Positions 25,980 through 33,565 of a stretch of 64,000 nt of DNA are shown one piece after another. Source of the DNA: Streptomyces sp. Y2F8-2 (lineage in GTDB: Bacteria; Actinomycetota; Actinomycetes; Streptomycetales; Streptomycetaceae); the NCBI RefSeq assembly GCF_014905555.1, contig NZ_BNGS01000001.1:310001-374000 (forward strand). Direction: 5' to 3'. Position 1 is the first letter of the stretch; each line of letters opens with the position of its first letter. The notes under the pieces were generated by a model. That model saw nothing but the letters and a program-made list of their open reading frames with translations. It was not told the origin of the DNA and did not search any database. The position numbers and the translations under genes were made by a program.

Positions 25980-26072
25980 TTTACGGACTCCTTAAGAAGA
26001 GACCTGTGTCACGTGTCAAACGGCCCAATCCGGGAGATGCGGGCTCGGCCCCGAGGTCGAGCGGCCACCTGT

Positions 26073-26114
26073 CCCCCGGCCCGGGCCGAGCTCGGCCCCC
26101 GGCCCGGGCCGAGC
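26073..26114. repeat. 19-base direct repeat upstream of panB
   Basis: CCCCCGGCCCGGGCCGAGC occurs at 26073-26091 and again at 26096-26114, 23 bases apart. The unit itself is self-complementary (GGCCCGGGCC). It lies in the 285-base divergent region between the DHA2 exporter and panB; no gene there. Confidence 0.6.
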
Positions 26115-26214
26115 CCCGCTCCCTGCCCTAGCCGCGCGTGGCACGAGGTGCCACCATGGGGGTGGTCCGGGGACGCCGTCAGGGCGCCTCGAGATGACAG
26201 AAGGAGCCGTTGCG

Positions 26215-27102
26215 ATGACGCAGCTTCCGGCTGCCCAGGGGCAGCACGCTCAGGGCACGCTCAGGTCCTCCGACAGCAGCAAGGCGCTGTACGGGGGGAA
26301 GAGCACCCGCCGCATCACCGTCCGCGACCTCACCGCCGCCAAGGAGCGCGGCGAGAAGTGGCCCATGCTCACCGCCTACGACGCGATGACCGCGTCCGTG
26401 TTCGACGAGGCCGGCATCCCGGTCATGCTCGTCGGCGACTCGGCGGGCAACTGCCACCTCGGGTACGAGACGACCGTGCCCGTCACCCTCGACGAGATGA
26501 CCATGCTCTCCGCGGCGGTCGTACGGGGCACCAGGCGCGCCCTGATCGTCGGCGACCTGCCCTTCGGCTCGTACCAGGAGGGTCCGGTGCAAGCGCTGCG
26601 CTCGGCCACCCGGCTGGTGAAGGAGGCCGGGGTCGGCGCGGTGAAGCTGGAGGGCGGCGAGCGCTCGCACCGCCAGATCGAGCTGCTGGTGGAGTCCGGC
26701 ATCCCGGTCATGGCGCACATCGGCCTCACCCCGCAGTCCGTGAACGCCATGGGGTACCGCGTGCAGGGCCGCGGCGAGGAGGCGGCCGCGCAGCTGCTGC
26801 GGGACGCCAAGGCGGTGCAGGACGCGGGTGCGTTCGCGGTGGTCCTGGAGCTGGTGCCGGCGGAGCTGGCGGCCGAGGTGACGCGGGTGCTGCACATTCC
26901 GACGGTCGGCATCGGCGCCGGTCCGGACACGGACGCGCAGGTGCTCGTGTGGACGGACATGCTCGGACTGACCGGGGGCCGGGTGCCGAAGTTCGTGAAG
27001 AAGTACGCGGATCTGCGCCAGGTGATGGGCGACGCGGCGAAGGCGTTCGCCGAGGACGTGGTGGGCGGGACGTTCCCGCTCGAGGAGCACTCGGTCCACT
27101 GA
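26215..27102 (+). CDS. panB: 3-methyl-2-oxobutanoate hydroxymethyltransferase
   Basis: The 295-residue enzyme has the TIM-barrel blocks of ketopantoate hydroxymethyltransferase: MLTAYDAMTASVFDEAGI, VGDSAGNCHLGYETT, VGDLPFGSYQ, VKLEGG, AHIGLTPQSVNAMGY and IGIGAGPDTDAQVLVW. It adds the hydroxymethyl of methylene-tetrahydrofolate to ketoisovalerate, the first step to pantothenate and CoA. ATG 26215 has AGAAGGAG eight bases upstream; an ATG 21 bases earlier has none. Monocistronic. Confidence 0.96.
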   Translation: MTQLPAAQGQHAQGTLRSSDSSKALYGGKSTRRITVRDLTAAKERGEKWPMLTAYDAMTASVFDEAGIPVMLVGDSAGNCHLGYETTVPVTLDEMTMLSAAVVRGTRRALIVGDLPFGSYQEGPVQALRSATRLVKEAGVGAVKLEGGERSHRQIELLVESGIPVMAHIGLTPQSVNAMGYRVQGRGEEAAAQLLRDAKAVQDAGAFAVVLELVPAELAAEVTRVLHIPTVGIGAGPDTDAQVLVWTDMLGLTGGRVPKFVKKYADLRQVMGDAAKAFAEDVVGGTFPLEEHSVH

Positions 27103-27173
27103 CGTCCGCCGGCCGTCCACACGGCGAAGCCCCATAAGGCCACCGCCCCGCGCCCCTTCAGGTGGCGCGCAGC

Positions 27174-27203
27174 AGCCCGCCGATCTTCCCCCGTCGGCGG
27201 GCT
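27174..27203 (+). terminator. Hairpin after panB
   Basis: AGCCCGCCGA (27174-27183) and TCGGCGGGCT (27194-27203) form a perfect 10-base-pair stem with a 10-base C/T-rich loop, 72 bases after panB. Its right arm overlaps the first heptamers of the downstream array. Confidence 0.55.
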
Positions 27204-27262
27204 GTTCGCCGTCTGTCGGCACCCTGTCGGCGGCTGTAGGTGCGCTGTCGGTCGTTTGTCGG
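27191..27262 (+). promoter_or_regulatory. Array of seven phased heptamers, SARP-type binding region of the ABC exporter
   Basis: Heptamers start at 27191 (CCGTCGG), 27202 (CTGTTCG), 27213 (CTGTCGG), 27224 (CTGTCGG), 27234 (CTGTAGG), 27245 (CTGTCGG) and 27256 (TTGTCGG). The spacings are 11, 11, 11, 10, 11, 11 bases, so all lie on one face of the helix. SARP regulators are known to bind direct heptamer repeats with 11-base spacing near the -35. A large SARP gene is convergent to the two ABC genes. The array ends 22 bases before the ABC start codon. Confidence 0.7.
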
Positions 27263-27284
27263 TGGGGGCTGACACCTTCGTGGC

Positions 27285-28310
27285 ATGACGCGAATCGACA
27301 ACACCCCGAAAGACGCCGCACCGGACGCGGCCGTCACCGTGCGGGGGCTGGTCAAGCACTACGGTGAGACCAAGGCGCTGGACGGCGTCGACCTCGATGT
27401 GCGCGAGGGCACCGTCCTCGGCGTGCTGGGGCCGAACGGTGCCGGCAAGACCACCCTCGTGCGCTGCCTGTCCACCCTCATCACCCCGGACGCCGGCCAC
27501 GCCGTGGTCGCCGGCTACGACGTCGTACGGCAGCCGCGGCAGACGCGCCGCGTGATAGGCCTCACCGGCCAGTACGCCTCCGTGGACGAGAAGCTGTCCG
27601 GTTTCGAGAACCTCTACATGATCGGCCGGCTCCTCGACCTGTCCCGCAAGGAGGCCCGCGCCCGGGCCGACGGGCTGCTGGAGCGGTTCTCGCTCACCGA
27701 GGCCGCGAAGCGCCCGGCGTCCACGTACTCCGGCGGTATGCGCCGGCGCCTGGACCTCGCCGCCTCGATGATCGGGCACCCGGCGGTGCTCTACCTGGAC
27801 GAGCCGACCACCGGCCTCGACCCCCGCACCCGGAACGAGGTGTGGACCGAGGTCAAGCGGATGGTCGCCGAGGGCGCGACCGTGCTGCTCACCACCCAGT
27901 ACATGGAGGAGGCCGAGCAGCTCGCCTCCGAGCTGACCGTCATCGACCGCGGCAAGGTCATCGCGGGCGGCGGCATCGACGAACTGAAGGCCAAGGTCGG
28001 CGGCCGTACGCTGCGCGTCCGTCCGGCCGACCCGGCGGAGCTGCGCCCGACGGCCGCGGCACTCGACGAGTTCGGCCTCACCGGTCCCGGCGGCGCGACC
28101 TTGGACACCGAGACCGGCACCGTCCTCGTGCCGATCCTCAGCGACGAGCAGCTGACCGCCGTGGTCGGCGCGCTCACCGCCCGCGGCATCACGCTGGCCG
28201 GCATCTCCACCGAACTGCCCAGCCTGGACGAGGTGTTCCTGTCCCTCACCGGCCACAAGGCCGGAACCCCGCAGAACGCGTCCCCCGCCCGTGAGGAGGT
28301 CGCCGCATGA
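27285..28310 (+). CDS. ABC exporter ATP-binding protein, DrrA type
   Basis: The 341-residue protein has Walker A LGPNGAGKTTL, the Q loop GLTGQYASVDEKLSG, the signature YSGGMRRRLDLAAS, Walker B VLYLDEPTTGLDP, a switch His region equivalent (LLTTQYMEEAEQLA, with Gln in the usual His position) and a C-terminal DUF4162 domain. This is the daunorubicin-resistance DrrA family of drug exporters. There is no Shine-Dalgarno before ATG 27285, so transcription may start at or near the ATG. Its stop overlaps the permease ATG (ATGA, 28307-28310). Confidence 0.93.
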   Translation: MTRIDNTPKDAAPDAAVTVRGLVKHYGETKALDGVDLDVREGTVLGVLGPNGAGKTTLVRCLSTLITPDAGHAVVAGYDVVRQPRQTRRVIGLTGQYASVDEKLSGFENLYMIGRLLDLSRKEARARADGLLERFSLTEAAKRPASTYSGGMRRRLDLAASMIGHPAVLYLDEPTTGLDPRTRNEVWTEVKRMVAEGATVLLTTQYMEEAEQLASELTVIDRGKVIAGGGIDELKAKVGGRTLRVRPADPAELRPTAAALDEFGLTGPGGATLDTETGTVLVPILSDEQLTAVVGALTARGITLAGISTELPSLDEVFLSLTGHKAGTPQNASPAREEVAA

Positions 28311-29125
28311 GCGCCACCACCCTGACCGCACCTGCCGCCCCGGTCTCCGAAGGCCGTATCGGACTGCGCGCCAACCTGCGCCACATCGGCGCGCTGGTCC
28401 GCCGGAACCTGCTGTGGATCCGGCAGGACCCGGAGTCGATGTTCGACGCGATCCTGTTCCCCGTCATCTTCTGCCTGCTGTTCGTGTTCGTCTTCGGCGG
28501 CGCGATCGCGGGCACCCACAACCGGCACGCGTACGTCAACTACGTGGTCCCCGGCCTGATGGCGATGATGGGCATGAACATCGCGCAGGGCGTGGGCACC
28601 GGGTTCAACGAGGACTTCCACAAGGGCGTGATGGACCGCTTCCGGTCCCTGCCGATCAGTCGCGCCTCCGTCCTGGTCGCGAAGATCACGGTGGAGCTCG
28701 GGCGGATGCTGTTCGCCACTGCGGTTCTGCTCACGGTGGGCTTCATGCTCGGACTGTCGGTGTCGAACGTCCCGGGCCTGTTCGCGGCGATCGGCCTGTC
28801 GGTGCTCTTCGGGTTCGGGATCATGTGGATCTTCCTGACCCTGGGCGTGGTGCTGAAGAGCGCCCAGGCCGTCCAAGGGATGGGGTTTCTCGTGCTGATG
28901 CCGCTGCAGTTCGGTTCGTCGATCTTCGCCCCGACCAGCACCATGCCGGGCTGGCTGCAGGCGTTCACCGACTACAACCCGCTGTCGACGCTCGCGGACG
29001 CCGCCCGGGGTCTGATGAACGGGGGTCCGGTCGCCCACAGCGTGCTGATGACCCTCGCCTGGTCGGCCGTCCTCACGCTGGTCATGGCGCCGATCGCCAT
29101 CCGCAAGTTCAACAACAAGAGCTGA
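28307..29125 (+). CDS. ABC-2 type exporter permease, DrrB type
   Basis: The 272-residue protein has six membrane segments typical of ABC-2 permeases and the family blocks IRQDPESMFDAILFPVIFCL, ALGVGTGFNEDF-like GVGTGFNEDFHKGVMDRFRS, LGVVLKSAQAVQGMGF and PTSTMPGWLQAF. It forms the membrane half of the exporter with the ATPase to which it is coupled. Substrate unknown, probably a hydrophobic compound. Convergent with the SARP gene, 28 bases apart. Confidence 0.92.
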   Translation: MSATTLTAPAAPVSEGRIGLRANLRHIGALVRRNLLWIRQDPESMFDAILFPVIFCLLFVFVFGGAIAGTHNRHAYVNYVVPGLMAMMGMNIAQGVGTGFNEDFHKGVMDRFRSLPISRASVLVAKITVELGRMLFATAVLLTVGFMLGLSVSNVPGLFAAIGLSVLFGFGIMWIFLTLGVVLKSAQAVQGMGFLVLMPLQFGSSIFAPTSTMPGWLQAFTDYNPLSTLADAARGLMNGGPVAHSVLMTLAWSAVLTLVMAPIAIRKFNNKS

Positions 29126-29153
29126 CGCCGGGCACGGGCACAGCCGGTCCGCG

Positions 29154-32100
29154 TCACACGAGGGCGGCGGCCTCCTCCAGAGTGAGGCCGCCGCCCTCCG
29201 CGTACGCGGACTCGTAGGCAGTGTCGCCCAGCGCGGCCCGGGCACCCGCCTCCGCCCTGGCGCGTGCCTCGAGCTCCGCGGGTGCCCGGACGTGGCCGGG
29301 CGGCAGCAGCCCGTCTGCGGCGGCCACGCACCGGGCCGCGTCCGCGGCGCGACGCCCGCCGTCCACGCCGGCGAGCGCGATCGCCGCGGTCACCAGATGC
29401 ACGGAGGCCATGTGCGGAGCGATCACCAGGCTCACCCGGTCCGCCGCGCGTGCGAGTGCCGTGCGCACCTTGACGAGCGCCTCCTCGTACCGCTCCTCGA
29501 CGGCGTCCAGCCAGGCGTCCAGGCCGGTCATCATCCCGTCGAAGACCGCGAAGGACGCGGCGCCGAACTCCTCGCGGACCACCTGGAGTTGCTCGCGCGC
29601 CTCGGCGACGCGGTCCGTCCGGCCGAGCCACATCACCAGGAAGATCCGGGCGAACGGCATCGCGTCCATCGCGCCGTGGCGTTCCTCGATCACCTGGCGC
29701 AGCAGCCGCTCACCCCGCTCGGCCTCCCCCGCGTCCAGCAGGGCGCTGCCGAGGCGGGCGCCGAGCACGGCCATCTGGGAGAGGGCACCGAGCTGTTCGG
29801 CCTGACGCTGCGCGGCTTCGTAGTCGGCGGCGGCGAGCAGGTAGTCACCGCGGCGTTCGTTCGCCTCACCGCGGGCTGACAGGGCCTCGGCCGCGCCCCA
29901 GGCGTCGCCGAGGCGGCGGAAGATCTCCAGCGCCTCGTCCGCGTCCCGGGTCGCGTCGCCCGCCCAGTCGCCGCGGTTGGCGAAGATGTTGGCGCGCAAC
30001 TGCAGGGTCTGGGCCAGCTCCCAGGTGTAGCCGAGCTCGCGGCAGGTGCGGACCGACTCGTCGAGGACCGTGCGCACACGCTCCATGTCCGTGGTGAGCA
30101 GAACGGCGAAGAACCACAGGAACCCGGGCACCCGGCAGGTCTGCGGCTGCCCGGGGCGGTAGGTCCGGCTGATGACGCTCAGCTTCTCCTTGGCCTCGGG
30201 CGTCTCCCACGCCTGGATGTCCACGTCCATGCAGGAGAGGTGGACGAGATGCGCGTCGCGGCGGGCCTCGTCGAGGACCTCGGGGCGCATCGGCGGCGGG
30301 GTGTCGGTGGGCCGGTCGAGCAGGTCCGGCACCGCACGCGCGGGCGAGGTGAACGGGTCGGGGCCGAGCGCCATGACCGCGGTCGACCAGGCGCGGGCCT
30401 CCGTGCGCAGGTCCCGCATCTGCCAGTACCAGCACAGCGAGAGCAGCAGGCACAGCGCCTCCTGCTCGTCGCGGGCGGCGACTGCGTGGCGCAGGGCGGT
30501 ACGCAGGTTCTCGTACTCGAGCTGGAGGCGCTCGACCGCCGACCGTTGCTGCGAGGAGCGCAGCAACGGGTCGGTGGTGCGGGCCAGTTCACGGTAGTAG
30601 GTGAGGTGCGCGCGTTCGGTGTCGGACCGCTCGCCCGACTCGTCGAGCCGCTCCCCCGCGTACTCGGCGACCGTCTCGAGAAGCCGGTAGCGCATCTCGC
30701 CGTCGCCCGAAGGGGCGGCCACGACGAGGGACTTGTCGACGAGCGAGCCGAGTGCCTCCAGGGCGGCGGGTCCGCACACGGCCTCGGCGGCGGTCAGGTC
30801 GCATCCGCCGGAGAAGACGGACAGCCGGCGCAGCACCGCGCGTTCGTCCTCGTCGAGGAGGTCCCAGGACCAGTCGACGACGGCCCGCAGCGTCTGCTGG
30901 CGGGGCAGCACGGTGCGGCTGCCGGAAGTCAGCAGCCGGAAGCGGTCGTCGAGCCGGTCGGCGATCTGGCGCGGGGTGAGCATGCGGAGGCGGGCGGCCG
31001 CCAGTTCGATGGCGAGGGGCAGCCCGTCGAGGCGGCGGCAGATCTCGGCGGCGGCCTCGGGGTCGTCCTCGACGCGGAAGCCGGGCCGGGCGGCGGCGCC
31101 GCGGTCGGCGAGCAGTTCCAGGGCGTACGGCTGCGGCAGCGGCTCGACGGGGCGCAGTACCTCTCCGGGGACGCCGAGGGGTTCCCGGCTGGTGGCGAGG
31201 ACCGTCAGGCCGGGGCAGCGTTCGAGCAGGTGCGCGACGAGGTGGGCGGCGGCGTCCACGACGTGCTCGCAGTTGTCGAGGATGAGCAGCATGCGGCGCC
31301 GGGCGCAGTGCTCGGCGAGCCGGACGAGGGGGTCGTCGTGCCGGTCGGCGACGGCGCGCATCTCCTCGGCGCCGGCGCCGCGCAGCACGGTCTCGCGCGC
31401 GCCGACGGCGGTGAGCACGGCCTCGGGCACGGCCTCGGGGTCGTCGACGGGCGCGAGTTCGGCCAGCCACACGCCGTCCCGCAGTTCGTGCGCCACGGTC
31501 TCGGCGGCCTCCTGGGACAGCCGCGTCTTTCCGGCGCCACCGGGCCCGAGCAGGGTGACGAGCCGGGAGTGGGCGAGATCACCGCGAAGGGCGTCGATGT
31601 CGGCGTCGCGCCCGACGAAGGAGGTGAGCCGGGCGCGGAGGTTTCCGGGAGGCGGGGGTGCGGCGGGGGTGCCGCCGTGGGACGGGCGCGTGGTGGGCGC
31701 GGCGCCGGGGACACGCAGCAACTCCTCGTGGAGCGCGCGCAGTTCGGGTCCGGGGTCGGAGCCCAGCCGGTCAGCCAGCAACTGCCGTACGTCCTCGTAG
31801 GCGGCCAGGGCCTGAGCCGGGCGGCCCGCGTCCCGCAGGGCGCGCAGGCGCAGCGCCTGGAGGGGCTCGTCCAGGGGGTGGAGGTCGCACAGGGCGGTCA
31901 GCTCGGGCAGGTGCTGCTCGCCGTGGCCGAGGGCGAGCCCCGCGGTGAGGCGGGCGCGGAGCGCGTCGAGGCGGCGGGTCTCCCAGCGGGCGGCCTCGGC
32001 GGTGCGGTCGGGCAGGTCGGCGAGGGCGGGGCCGCGCCACAGGGCGAGGGCGTCGTCCAGCACGACCGCCGCCTTCGCGGGGTCGCCGTCGGCCAGTGCG

Positions 32101-32435
32101 CGCAGGCCCTCCCCGGCCAGCCGCTCGAACCGGTGCAGGTCGACGTCGTCCGGCGCGGCGGCCAGCCGGTAGCCGCCGTCCACGGACTCCACGGCCTCCG
32201 CACCGAGCGCCCGGCGCAGCCGCCCGACCAGCGCCTGCAGGGCGCCGGGGGCATCGGCGGGCGGGTCGCCGTCCCACACCTCGTCGACGAGCAGGGTGGC
32301 CGGCACGACCCGGCCGGCCCGCAGCGCGAGCACGGTCAGCAGGGCACGCAGCCGCGCCCCGCCGAGGGGCAGCGGCGTGCCGTCGGGGCGAAGTGCCTGG
32401 GTGGTACCGAGAAGGCGATAGCGCACGGGGTTCAT
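29154..32435 (-). CDS. Large SARP-family (AfsR-like) transcriptional regulator
   Basis: The 1093-residue protein has an N-terminal winged-helix (RYRLLGTTQALRPDG, LRALLTVLALRAGRVVPATL), a BTAD domain (about 95-245), an NB-ARC/AAA ATPase (about 270-560; Walker A LLGPGGAGKTRLSQ, Walker B LLILDNCEHVVDAA, LPLAIELAAARL) and C-terminal TPR-like repeats. SARPs activate genes by binding direct heptamer repeats. The array in front of the convergent ABC exporter fits such a target. ATG 32435 was preferred to 32453; GTG 32426 has the better-spaced GGAG and is also possible. Confidence 0.92.
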   Translation of the reverse strand: MNPVRYRLLGTTQALRPDGTPLPLGGARLRALLTVLALRAGRVVPATLLVDEVWDGDPPADAPGALQALVGRLRRALGAEAVESVDGGYRLAAAPDDVDLHRFERLAGEGLRALADGDPAKAAVVLDDALALWRGPALADLPDRTAEAARWETRRLDALRARLTAGLALGHGEQHLPELTALCDLHPLDEPLQALRLRALRDAGRPAQALAAYEDVRQLLADRLGSDPGPELRALHEELLRVPGAAPTTRPSHGGTPAAPPPPGNLRARLTSFVGRDADIDALRGDLAHSRLVTLLGPGGAGKTRLSQEAAETVAHELRDGVWLAELAPVDDPEAVPEAVLTAVGARETVLRGAGAEEMRAVADRHDDPLVRLAEHCARRRMLLILDNCEHVVDAAAHLVAHLLERCPGLTVLATSREPLGVPGEVLRPVEPLPQPYALELLADRGAAARPGFRVEDDPEAAAEICRRLDGLPLAIELAAARLRMLTPRQIADRLDDRFRLLTSGSRTVLPRQQTLRAVVDWSWDLLDEDERAVLRRLSVFSGGCDLTAAEAVCGPAALEALGSLVDKSLVVAAPSGDGEMRYRLLETVAEYAGERLDESGERSDTERAHLTYYRELARTTDPLLRSSQQRSAVERLQLEYENLRTALRHAVAARDEQEALCLLLSLCWYWQMRDLRTEARAWSTAVMALGPDPFTSPARAVPDLLDRPTDTPPPMRPEVLDEARRDAHLVHLSCMDVDIQAWETPEAKEKLSVISRTYRPGQPQTCRVPGFLWFFAVLLTTDMERVRTVLDESVRTCRELGYTWELAQTLQLRANIFANRGDWAGDATRDADEALEIFRRLGDAWGAAEALSARGEANERRGDYLLAAADYEAAQRQAEQLGALSQMAVLGARLGSALLDAGEAERGERLLRQVIEERHGAMDAMPFARIFLVMWLGRTDRVAEAREQLQVVREEFGAASFAVFDGMMTGLDAWLDAVEERYEEALVKVRTALARAADRVSLVIAPHMASVHLVTAAIALAGVDGGRRAADAARCVAAADGLLPPGHVRAPAELEARARAEAGARAALGDTAYESAYAEGGGLTLEEAAALV

Positions 32436-32580
32436 TCTCTCCGCCACCGTCACCGCGGGTCACGGGGTTTCCGCGCGGCGCGGCGCGGGCACCGGAACTC
32501 GGCCCCCGTGGCGAGACGTTTTCCCGCTGCGCCCGGTACGGTCGGGCCGTCGCCGTATGTGTACGAGTTCAGGGAGACCC

Positions 32581-33381
32581 ATGACCACCGCCGCCGCCCG
32601 GCGCAGTGACCGCAGGATCAGTCCCGTGTTCGTCGGGATTCTGGCCGTGACGGCGGTCACCGGCTGGGCCACCTGGAGCGGGTTCGCCGAGCAGCCTGGC
32701 GTCGCCGTGTTCCTGTTCGTGACGGCCGCCTGGGTGGTCTCCCTGTGCCTGCACGAGTACGCGCACGCCCGCACCGCCCTGCACAGCGGCGACATCTCGG
32801 TCGGCGCGAAGGGCTACCTCACGCTGAACCCGCTGAAGTACACGCACGCCCTGCTGAGCATCGTGCTGCCGGTGGTCTTCGTGATCATGGGCGGGATCGG
32901 TCTGCCGGGCGGCGCGGTGTTCATCGAGCGGGGCCGTATCCGGGGCCGCTGGCGGCACAGCCTGATCTCGGCGGCGGGCCCGCTGACGAACGTGGTGTTC
33001 GCGGCGCTCCTGACGGCCCCGTTCTGGCTGGGCGCGCTGGACGGGGTGCCGCGGGACTTCCGGTTCGCCCTGGCCTTCCTCGCCCTGCTGGAGGTCTCGG
33101 CGACGATCCTGAACTTCCTGCCGGTGCCCGGCCTGGACGGCTACGGCATCCTGGAGCCCTGGCTGCCGTACGGCGTCCGGCGCCAGGTGGAGCCGTTCGC
33201 GCCGTTCGGCCTGCTGTTCGTGTTCGCGCTGCTGTGGGTGCCGTCCGTCAACAACGCGTTCTTCGACGCGATCGACACCATCCTGAACGGCCTGGGCATC
33301 GGCGACTTCGACCGGTACTGCGGTCAGGAGCTGTACCGCTTCTGGCAGGGCACCAACGAGGGCTGCTCGGTCAGCCCGTGA
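32581..33381 (+). CDS. M50-family intramembrane metalloprotease (site-2 protease type)
   Basis: The 266-residue protein has about six membrane segments, the zinc motif HEYAH (in VVSLCLHEYAHARTALHSGD) and the second conserved block NFLPVPGLDGYG. Substrate unknown; actinobacterial members cleave membrane anti-sigma factors or similar. AGGGAG lies 6 bases before ATG 32581. The 3' end overlaps the convergent small membrane gene by 11 bases. Confidence 0.9.
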   Translation: MTTAAARRSDRRISPVFVGILAVTAVTGWATWSGFAEQPGVAVFLFVTAAWVVSLCLHEYAHARTALHSGDISVGAKGYLTLNPLKYTHALLSIVLPVVFVIMGGIGLPGGAVFIERGRIRGRWRHSLISAAGPLTNVVFAALLTAPFWLGALDGVPRDFRFALAFLALLEVSATILNFLPVPGLDGYGILEPWLPYGVRRQVEPFAPFGLLFVFALLWVPSVNNAFFDAIDTILNGLGIGDFDRYCGQELYRFWQGTNEGCSVSP

Positions 33382-33565
33382 CGGACCTCGCCCCGTCCGA
33401 CCGGCCCGCGCGGCCGCGCTTGAAGTAGTACCAGGTCATGTTGGACGACACGCCCGCGAGCAGGATCCACACGATGCCGAGCCAGCTGCCCTGGACGAAG
33501 GAGACGACGGCCGCGGCCACGGAGAGGACGCAGACGGCGAGGGCGTAGAGGGCTAGGCGGGGCAT
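33371..33565 (-). CDS. Small membrane protein
   Basis: This 64-residue protein has two hydrophobic helices (LALYALAVCVLSVAAAVVSF and IVWILLAGVSSNMTWYYF) and a basic tail RGRAGRS. AGGAG precedes ATG 33565. No family recognised. It lies 84 bases downstream of the F420-NADPH reductase on the same strand, but a hairpin separates them. Confidence 0.65.
   Translation of the reverse strand: MPRLALYALAVCVLSVAAAVVSFVQGSWLGIVWILLAGVSSNMTWYYFKRGRAGRSDGARSVTG

Follow-up and report, generated by a model that had tools for sequence, protein, structure and literature searches.

In the window, the 64,000-nucleotide stretch of Streptomyces sp. Y2F8-2 DNA that was analysed, an array of phased heptamers lies in front of a DrrAB-type ABC exporter whose genes converge with the gene for a large SARP (Table 1). 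The best explanation is that the array is the operator of this adjacent SARP, which would activate a leaderless drrAB mRNA as part of a pump-and-detoxification response (probability about 0.84). The initial annotation had proposed a SARP-controlled export unit with seven operator copies; the unit is supported by the SARP-type operator before the exporter and by a dedicated, adjacent large SARP (100 of 100 relatives), but the number of copies is not. Judged from sequence organization, we are confident that the promoter is of the SARP-activated type and would be served by the neighbouring SARP. That the same SARP may also serve flavoenzyme genes is less sure. Taken together, the data point to self-protection under the control of a SARP, a circuit that has not been described before.

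Table 1. Features of the panB–drrAB–SARP region, in window coordinates
Feature	Position	Strand	Remarks
panB (ketopantoate hydroxymethyltransferase)	26194–27102	+	PF02548, 362 bits; upstream neighbour, outside the unit
Strong hairpin behind panB	27169–27209	+	Fold -42.4 kcal/mol, z -6.2; contains heptamers 27191 and 27202
Heptamer CCGTCGG	27191	+	In 3' arm of the hairpin behind panB; outermost copy
Heptamer CTGTTCG	27202–27208	+	In phase, degenerate (two mismatches to TGTCGG); doubtful
Heptamer 5 (counted from the promoter) CTGTCGG	27213–27219	+	Member of five-copy chain
Heptamer 4 CTGTCGG	27224–27230	+	Member of five-copy chain
Heptamer 3 CTGTAGG	27234–27240	+	10-bp step from heptamer 4; core triplet member
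Heptamer 2 CTGTCGG	27245–27251	+	At -40 if A of ATG is +1; core pair member
Heptamer 1 TTGTCGG	27256–27262	+	Promoter-proximal, at -29; anchor for 97-relative alignment
Extended -10	27270–27278	+	TG 27270–27271, A, CACCTT 27273–27278; conserved in aligned relatives
drrA-like ABC exporter ATPase	27285–28310	+	TIGR01188, 384.7 bits (cut-off 312.45); PF00005
drrB-like ABC-2 membrane subunit	28307–29125	+	PF01061, 104.9 bits; 4-base overlap with drrA
Large SARP	29154–32435	-	Trans_reg_C and BTAD; convergent to exporter, 28-bp gap

The Exporter and the SARP

The drrA product scored 420.7 bits against the OtrC oxytetracycline pump model NF000106, short of its cut-off of 750, and the drrB product scored 62.3 bits against the DrrB model TIGR01247 (cut-off 223). 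The SARP begins with a winged helix (PF00486, 35.2 bits, cut-off 26.2), which is followed by a BTAD domain (PF03704, 144.7 bits, cut-off 22.1). It also contains a NOD/STAND ATPase part, for which AAA_22 exceeded its cut-off (29.8 over 27.0), while AAA_16 (32.4 against 32.6) and NB-ARC (22.3 against 23.5) remained just below theirs. The protein aligns with the AfsR chains 8k60 and 8jke across residues 4–606, and no Pfam match to the TPR repeats of a C-terminal sensor was found at an E-value of 0.001. The SARP was rejected as an AfsR equivalog, with 194.3 bits for NF053617 against a cut-off of 1430. The base-reading residues of AfsR are R92 and T88 (PMC10936776); their aligned counterparts in the window SARP are, in our numbering, R72 and A68, both invariant in all 89 orthologues whose DNA-binding half was covered. 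By eye, no heptamer array was seen in 32380–32900 before the SARP gene, and autoregulation through the array was discarded. BTAD, the SARP-type domain, has 13 matches in the genome as a whole, and for eleven of these the open frame exceeds 500 aa.

The Heptamer Array

Seven phased heptamers at 27191–27262 had been described, and their positions and 11/11/11/10/11/11 spacing proved exact; only five of them (27213–27262), however, are good copies. The idea that all seven are functional was dropped, as the copy at 27202 is doubtful with its two mismatches and the copy at 27191 lies in the arm of the hairpin behind panB. This hairpin is terminator-like with no T run, and a scan for T-run terminators found none. 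The same type of hairpin was found in 60 of the 82 relatives that have panB in the fetched stretch and in none of the 18 that do not. Since the hairpin tracks panB, the copy at 27191 belongs to the end of panB. The 18 relatives without panB in the stretch (of 100) nonetheless keep the array. No Rfam family reached its gathering threshold in 26000–33500, and a structured RNA element was rejected as a reading on this ground.

The pattern TGTMGG-N5-TGTMGG-N5-TGTMGG had a single match without mismatch in the window. With up to three mismatches there were three window matches, all inside the array, against a shuffle expectation of 0.44; two of 100 shuffled windows reached three. Across the 8.57-Mb genome, the sole triple with no mismatch and the sole triple with two mismatches both lie in this array. 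At three mismatches the genome showed no enrichment (28 matches in all, against 62 for the reversed-pattern control), and exact two-copy matches numbered four, three of them in the array, against six for the control pattern, so that pairs alone carry no information. Loose or two-copy matches were therefore set aside as a way of finding a regulon in this genome. The remaining exact two-copy site (G000:C1:1002875, L210) lacks NANNNT at +17; the next long frame, of 361 aa and by eye resembling a luciferase-type flavin oxidoreductase, begins 192 bp further on. Heptamer pattern scans and PF01494 matches revealed no FAD_binding_3 target of the array in the same genome, where the pump is the only clear array target found.

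The Promoter and the Predicted Start of Transcription

The initial annotation had seen no good -10, a view overturned by the conserved extended -10 TGA-CACCTT; its observation that the exporter ATG lacks a Shine-Dalgarno sequence was confirmed. The promoters of 97 relatives were aligned on the heptamer at -30 or -29, so the conservation of that heptamer itself is partly by construction; L108, L122, and L155 were left out because their start codons were misplaced. Counted from the heptamer start, a TG falls at offsets 14–15 (T in 94 and G in 97 of 97) and the -10 hexamer at offsets 17–22, with T as its last base in all 97 and A as its second base in 68, the others being mostly TCNNAT. The distance from the start of the last heptamer to the start of the -10 hexamer is thus 17 nt, and 6 or 7 nt separate the -10 from the ATG. 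A gap of this size would place +1 at the ATG, so the drrAB mRNA is probably leaderless, starting at the A of the ATG, which fits an ATG without a Shine-Dalgarno sequence.

No match to the sigma-70 consensus was found in 27050–27350, as expected for a promoter that depends on an activator. The features of a SARP-type promoter are present: direct heptamers spaced by one helical turn, the 3' one of which keeps a constant, short spacing to the -10. This 3' repeat stands in for the -35, in equal register to AfsR, whose direct repeat lies at -29 with the -10 at -12. On the proposed mechanism, the array would be the operator of the SARP encoded next door, with neighbouring SARP protomers each occupying one 11-bp unit after another. 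The two proximal units (-40 to -30 and -29 to -19) would replace the -35 element and bring RNA polymerase to the extended -10 (TGN-CANNNT), in the way described for AfsR at afsS. Transcription would then start from or next to the drrA ATG and yield a leaderless drrAB mRNA. The upstream heptamers probably add cooperative or tuning sites, and the SARP perhaps senses an inducer through its STAND/NOD-like part; what that molecule might be is a guess from the types of target.

Conservation in Streptomyces

A DNA search with 27081–27500 gave matches in 199 of 199 genus genomes (own included), the weakest of them being paralogues. From about 150 matches listed, 100 other genomes were sampled as 8-kb regions, five of which measured 5.3–6.1 kb at contig ends. 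Nearly all were picked through a match that reached the promoter region (in L156 and L165 it covered coding sequence only), and the sample therefore says nothing about the frequency of array loss. The claim that an AfsR-like SARP faces the DrrAB-type exporter was upheld, as the two are convergent in 100 of 100 fetched regions, with at least 486 bits to the window SARP. The gap between drrAB and the SARP has a median of 41 bp over the 93 loci with both ends read, the largest being 2,804 bp.

A chain was defined as heptamers with at most one mismatch in TGTCGG at 10–12-bp steps. At least three in-phase heptamers were found in 98 of the 100 exporter promoters, compared with 13 chains of at least three in the remainder of these loci, a total of 788,942 bp scanned on both strands, which makes promoters about 595-fold denser in chains than their flanks. 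The conservation of the 11-base spacing, put forward as a check by the initial annotation, held: with one mismatch per unit allowed, the core pair is present in 100 and the core triplet in 97 of 100 relatives, and 168 of 258 pairs of consecutive exact repeats, window included, are 11 bp apart. A chance origin was rejected in view of this conservation. The supposedly unusual length of the array is not the rule, however. The longest chain has three copies in 50 relatives, four in 18, five in 21, six to 11 in nine, and two in the remaining two (L139, L147), so that 30 of 100 carry five or more; the extremes are L150 with 11 and L069 and L084 with 10 each. L084 is a true tandem duplication of the 10-bp unit GTGTCGGtgc, and L150 an 11-bp tandem of a one-mismatch heptamer. 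A control core, GGCTGT, gave chains of at least three in 17 of 100 promoters, although it was poorly chosen because it overlaps the true repeats (GGCTGTCGG).

Presence and Absence of the Module

Neighbourhoods were searched with the SARP, DrrA, DrrB, PanB, and flavoenzymes. In 34 genomes with weak promoter matches, orthologues of the exporter and the SARP were scored by eye among the best matches listed: both were found in 17 genomes, neither in 14, and three were discordant. Among these best matches, the SARP was thus kept in 17 of the 18 exporter-bearing genomes and absent from 14 of the 16 without an exporter (Fisher p 1.6e-6, uncorrected for kinship). The exporter promoter was viewed in eight of the 18 exporter-bearing genomes and had a chain of at least three in every one. 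One genome, G145 (L197, 1400–4164), keeps the exporter and a perfect three-copy array with no SARP found beside them; a frame read by eye as site-2-protease-like directly follows its drrB. In G057 (L198) the module is decaying, with a SARP split over two frames, a drrB remnant, no drrA found, and no array. G152 has a SARP fragment near a contig end without the exporter. Near panB in L193 (G157), SARP remnants accompany a three-copy heptamer run with no exporter match, probably the relic of a lost module.

Diverged SARP–DrrAB pairs (L200, L241–L243; G120, G047, G105, G073) have no sense-strand heptamer chain before drrA. From this, the pairing of array and module appears specific to the present orthologue group, and the notion of one heptamer for all SARP–DrrAB pairs was abandoned. 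In L241, three one-mismatch units do form a single chain upstream of drrA, but on the opposite strand, and this was taken for chance. By eye, TGACAG/TGCCAG-like heptamers seem to lie 22 bp apart upstream of drrA in L200 and L241; in these diverged pairs, heptamer and SARP may have changed together.

Flavin Monooxygenase Genes Behind the Same Array

The exact triple pattern matched in 123 of 199 genus genomes, against nine for the reversed pattern. Twenty places were chosen by eye as lying off the exporter; two (L179, L196) proved to be exporters, which left 18 sites. At 11 of the 18, a gene for an FAD-dependent monooxygenase directly follows the array: six Tet(X)-like (L177, L178, L180–L182, L185), two rifampin-monooxygenase-like (L183, L190), and three destructase-like (L184, L188, L194). 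Three further sites precede other genes, for a small protein (L195), a short-chain dehydrogenase (L187), and a hydrolase of the esterase type (L186), while L189, L191, L192, and L193 have no plausible gene start within 250 bp (L191 has one at 255 bp). At 14 of the 18 sites, precisely the 14 with a target, the last heptamer begins exactly 17 nt before a NANNNT, against a background of 2.0% in 30 Tet(X)-like upstream regions. PF01494 has 40 matches in the window's own genome, often to short Rossmann stretches, which sets 11 monooxygenases among 18 targets far above background if 7,500 genes are assumed.

PF01494 (FAD_binding_3, cut-off 22) was detected in all eight monooxygenase-like proteins scanned; the other three of the 11 are 72–78% identical to L180. 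Three proteins scored 115.5–139.6 of 750 bits with the Tet(X) model NF033111, three scored 285.9–292.5 of 550 with the tetracycline destructase model NF033476, and two scored 351–363 of 800 with the rifampin monooxygenase model NF033145. The best model for the three destructase-like proteins was PRK05868 (379–387 of 536). As none of the eight scanned proteins reaches the cut-off of a named resistance family, they are to be read as distant relatives only.

The Tet(X)-like family was then taken as the best match in each of 30 genomes, of which L211 and L223 had already been counted as off-exporter sites. A chain of at least three (9–12-bp steps) was found within 300 bp upstream in 22 of 30 loci, compared with none of 30 on the antisense strand, none of 30 in the gene body, and three of 30 with the reversed string. 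NANNNT lies at +17 of the last counted repeat in 13 of the 22 chain-bearing promoters, and in 19 of 22 when one more degenerate repeat is allowed. In many of these arrays the distal steps measure 9 and 10 bp. Seven of the eight loci short of a chain of three contain TGGAA...TTCCA palindromes instead (L218, L219, L222, L224, L227, L235, L238), suggesting that another regulator has taken over; the eighth, L213, lacks the palindrome and has two chained copies. Among further Tet(X)-like loci, L255–L259 (five) showed no chain and L260 a chain of seven. The same array in the same register before class A flavin monooxygenases makes it most likely that the SARP would control a pump-and-detoxification response.

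Breadth Beyond the Genus

The exact triple, with YTGTCGG as its last unit, was found in 28 of 121 family genomes, 13 of them outside the genus, against four for the reversed pattern. Ten loci from other genera were examined: the exporter with the array occurs in two genera (L261–L263, L270), a Tet(X)-like gene with the array in another (L267), and a more distant DrrA with SARP and array in one more (L269), while L264–L266 and L268 have other targets or none. When genome_contigs (84,980 species) was scanned for the -10 preceded by three heptamers, at least 118 stretches were obtained. Of the 80 matches listed, some of which overlap genomes already counted, 69 precede this exporter (at least 76% identity) and three lie before genes of the other kinds of target, although two of these three are identical to L183 and L184 and hence not new evidence. 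The other eight listed matches precede neither kind of target, and six of them, to judge by their titles, come from outside the actinobacteria, mostly within longer tandem repeats. Named carriers include Streptomyces violaceoruber NRRL S-981, S. hygroscopicus ATCC 21589, and Kitasatospora aureofaciens NRRL B-2183. In the last of these (L276, 1173–1216), the array was seen together with exporter and SARP.

Alternative Explanations

The reading closest to the preferred one is that the SARP controls the exporter only and that paralogous SARPs read the arrays of the flavin monooxygenases. SARP paralogues do occur in several genomes, and the 9- and 10-bp distal steps of the Tet(X)-like arrays would suit a separate reader. 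Against this division, the heptamer and the +17 register are identical at both kinds of target, and we regard it as unlikely, if a serious contender. Considerably less probable is that another winged-helix reader of 11-bp direct repeats, either OmpR/PhoB-type or a different SARP, binds the array and that the neighbouring SARP is incidental. G145, which retains array and exporter with no SARP alongside, fits such a reader, as do the SARP paralogues of several genomes, whose DNA-binding halves are about 60% identical, and the overlap of PhoP and AfsR binding sites described in PMC10936776. Nevertheless, the convergence of exporter and SARP in 100 of 100 regions and their joint retention and loss among the best matches of the weak-match genomes speak for the neighbouring SARP, and the heptamer is unlike the AfsR repeat CGTT(T/C)ATCGNN (PMC10972967).

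Repression of drrAB by the SARP, in which case the array would act as a roadblock and not as a site of activation, is more improbable still. A repressive SARP, Atr32, has been reported (PMC10972967), yet the proximal pair lies exactly at the activating position of AfsR (PMC10936776) and the promoter lacks a sigma-70 consensus match. A neutral tandem repeat or plain chance can be given hardly any weight: true tandem duplications did arise in L084 and L150, but the contrast between promoters and flanks and the fixed register to the -10 speak against it. Several observations count against the preferred reading, an activating operator of the adjacent SARP. At the exporter these are the SARP-less G145, the two of 100 promoters with only two in-phase copies, and the diverged SARP–drrAB pairs with no sense-strand chain; elsewhere they are the lack of a three-copy chain in eight of 30 Tet(X)-like promoters, the other or missing targets at four of ten sites in other genera, and the FAD_binding_3 target looked for and not found in the window's own genome.

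A wider version of the preferred reading is tentative, its odds falling somewhat short of even. In this version the SARP would have moved out of antibiotic biosynthesis to become the sensor-activator of a core xenobiotic defence regulon of the Streptomycetaceae, comprising a leaderless OtrC/DrrA-type pump and Tet(X)-, destructase-, and Rox-like flavoenzymes, and heptamer number would have served in evolution as a gain knob around an unchanging core pair and -10 register. If true, a SARP regulon for the export and oxidation of drug-like molecules would be a shared intrinsic defence of streptomycetes that can be read from DNA. With pumps and enzymes as targets, whose substrates can be assayed, the inducers of large SARPs would become testable, and natural arrays of two to eleven phased sites would provide material for learning how site number sets output.

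Comparison with Known Systems

SARPs are best known as switches for antibiotic production. A literature search, in which subscription journals were thinly covered, found no account of the array, the convergent SARP–drrAB module, or flavoenzyme targets. The link between a pump and a SARP has a precedent in DnrI, the SARP that regulates the daunorubicin cluster and reportedly binds the DrrAB-pump resistance genes (drrAB/drrC) in S. peucetius; the window differs in having a large SARP beside panB. A shared DNA element before different resistance genes is also known from the rifamycin-associated element (RAE). The RAE, however, is a palindrome linked to rifamycin genes, whereas the window element consists of direct repeats in 11-bp phase.

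The SARP operators covered by a review have two or three heptamers (PMC10972967). The PimR operators at pimM in S. natalensis have three plus two copies, and binding to them is reported to be cooperative; they resemble the window array in their heptamers with 4-nt spacers and in one pair with a 10-bp unit. They differ in their heptamer (CGGCAAG), in having no -35 overlap, and in serving antibiotic biosynthesis (PMC5930380). At the afsS promoter of S. coelicolor, the AfsR repeats lie at -40 to -30 and -29 to -19, with CACTGT as the -10 (PMC10936776). The likeness to the window comprises a large SARP, 11-bp direct repeats, 17 nt to a CANNNT -10, and a poor -35. In contrast, afsS has two repeats only and another heptamer, and the target is afsS rather than a pump. 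Moreover, T88 and S91 of AfsR correspond to A68 and G71 at the aligned positions of the window SARP.
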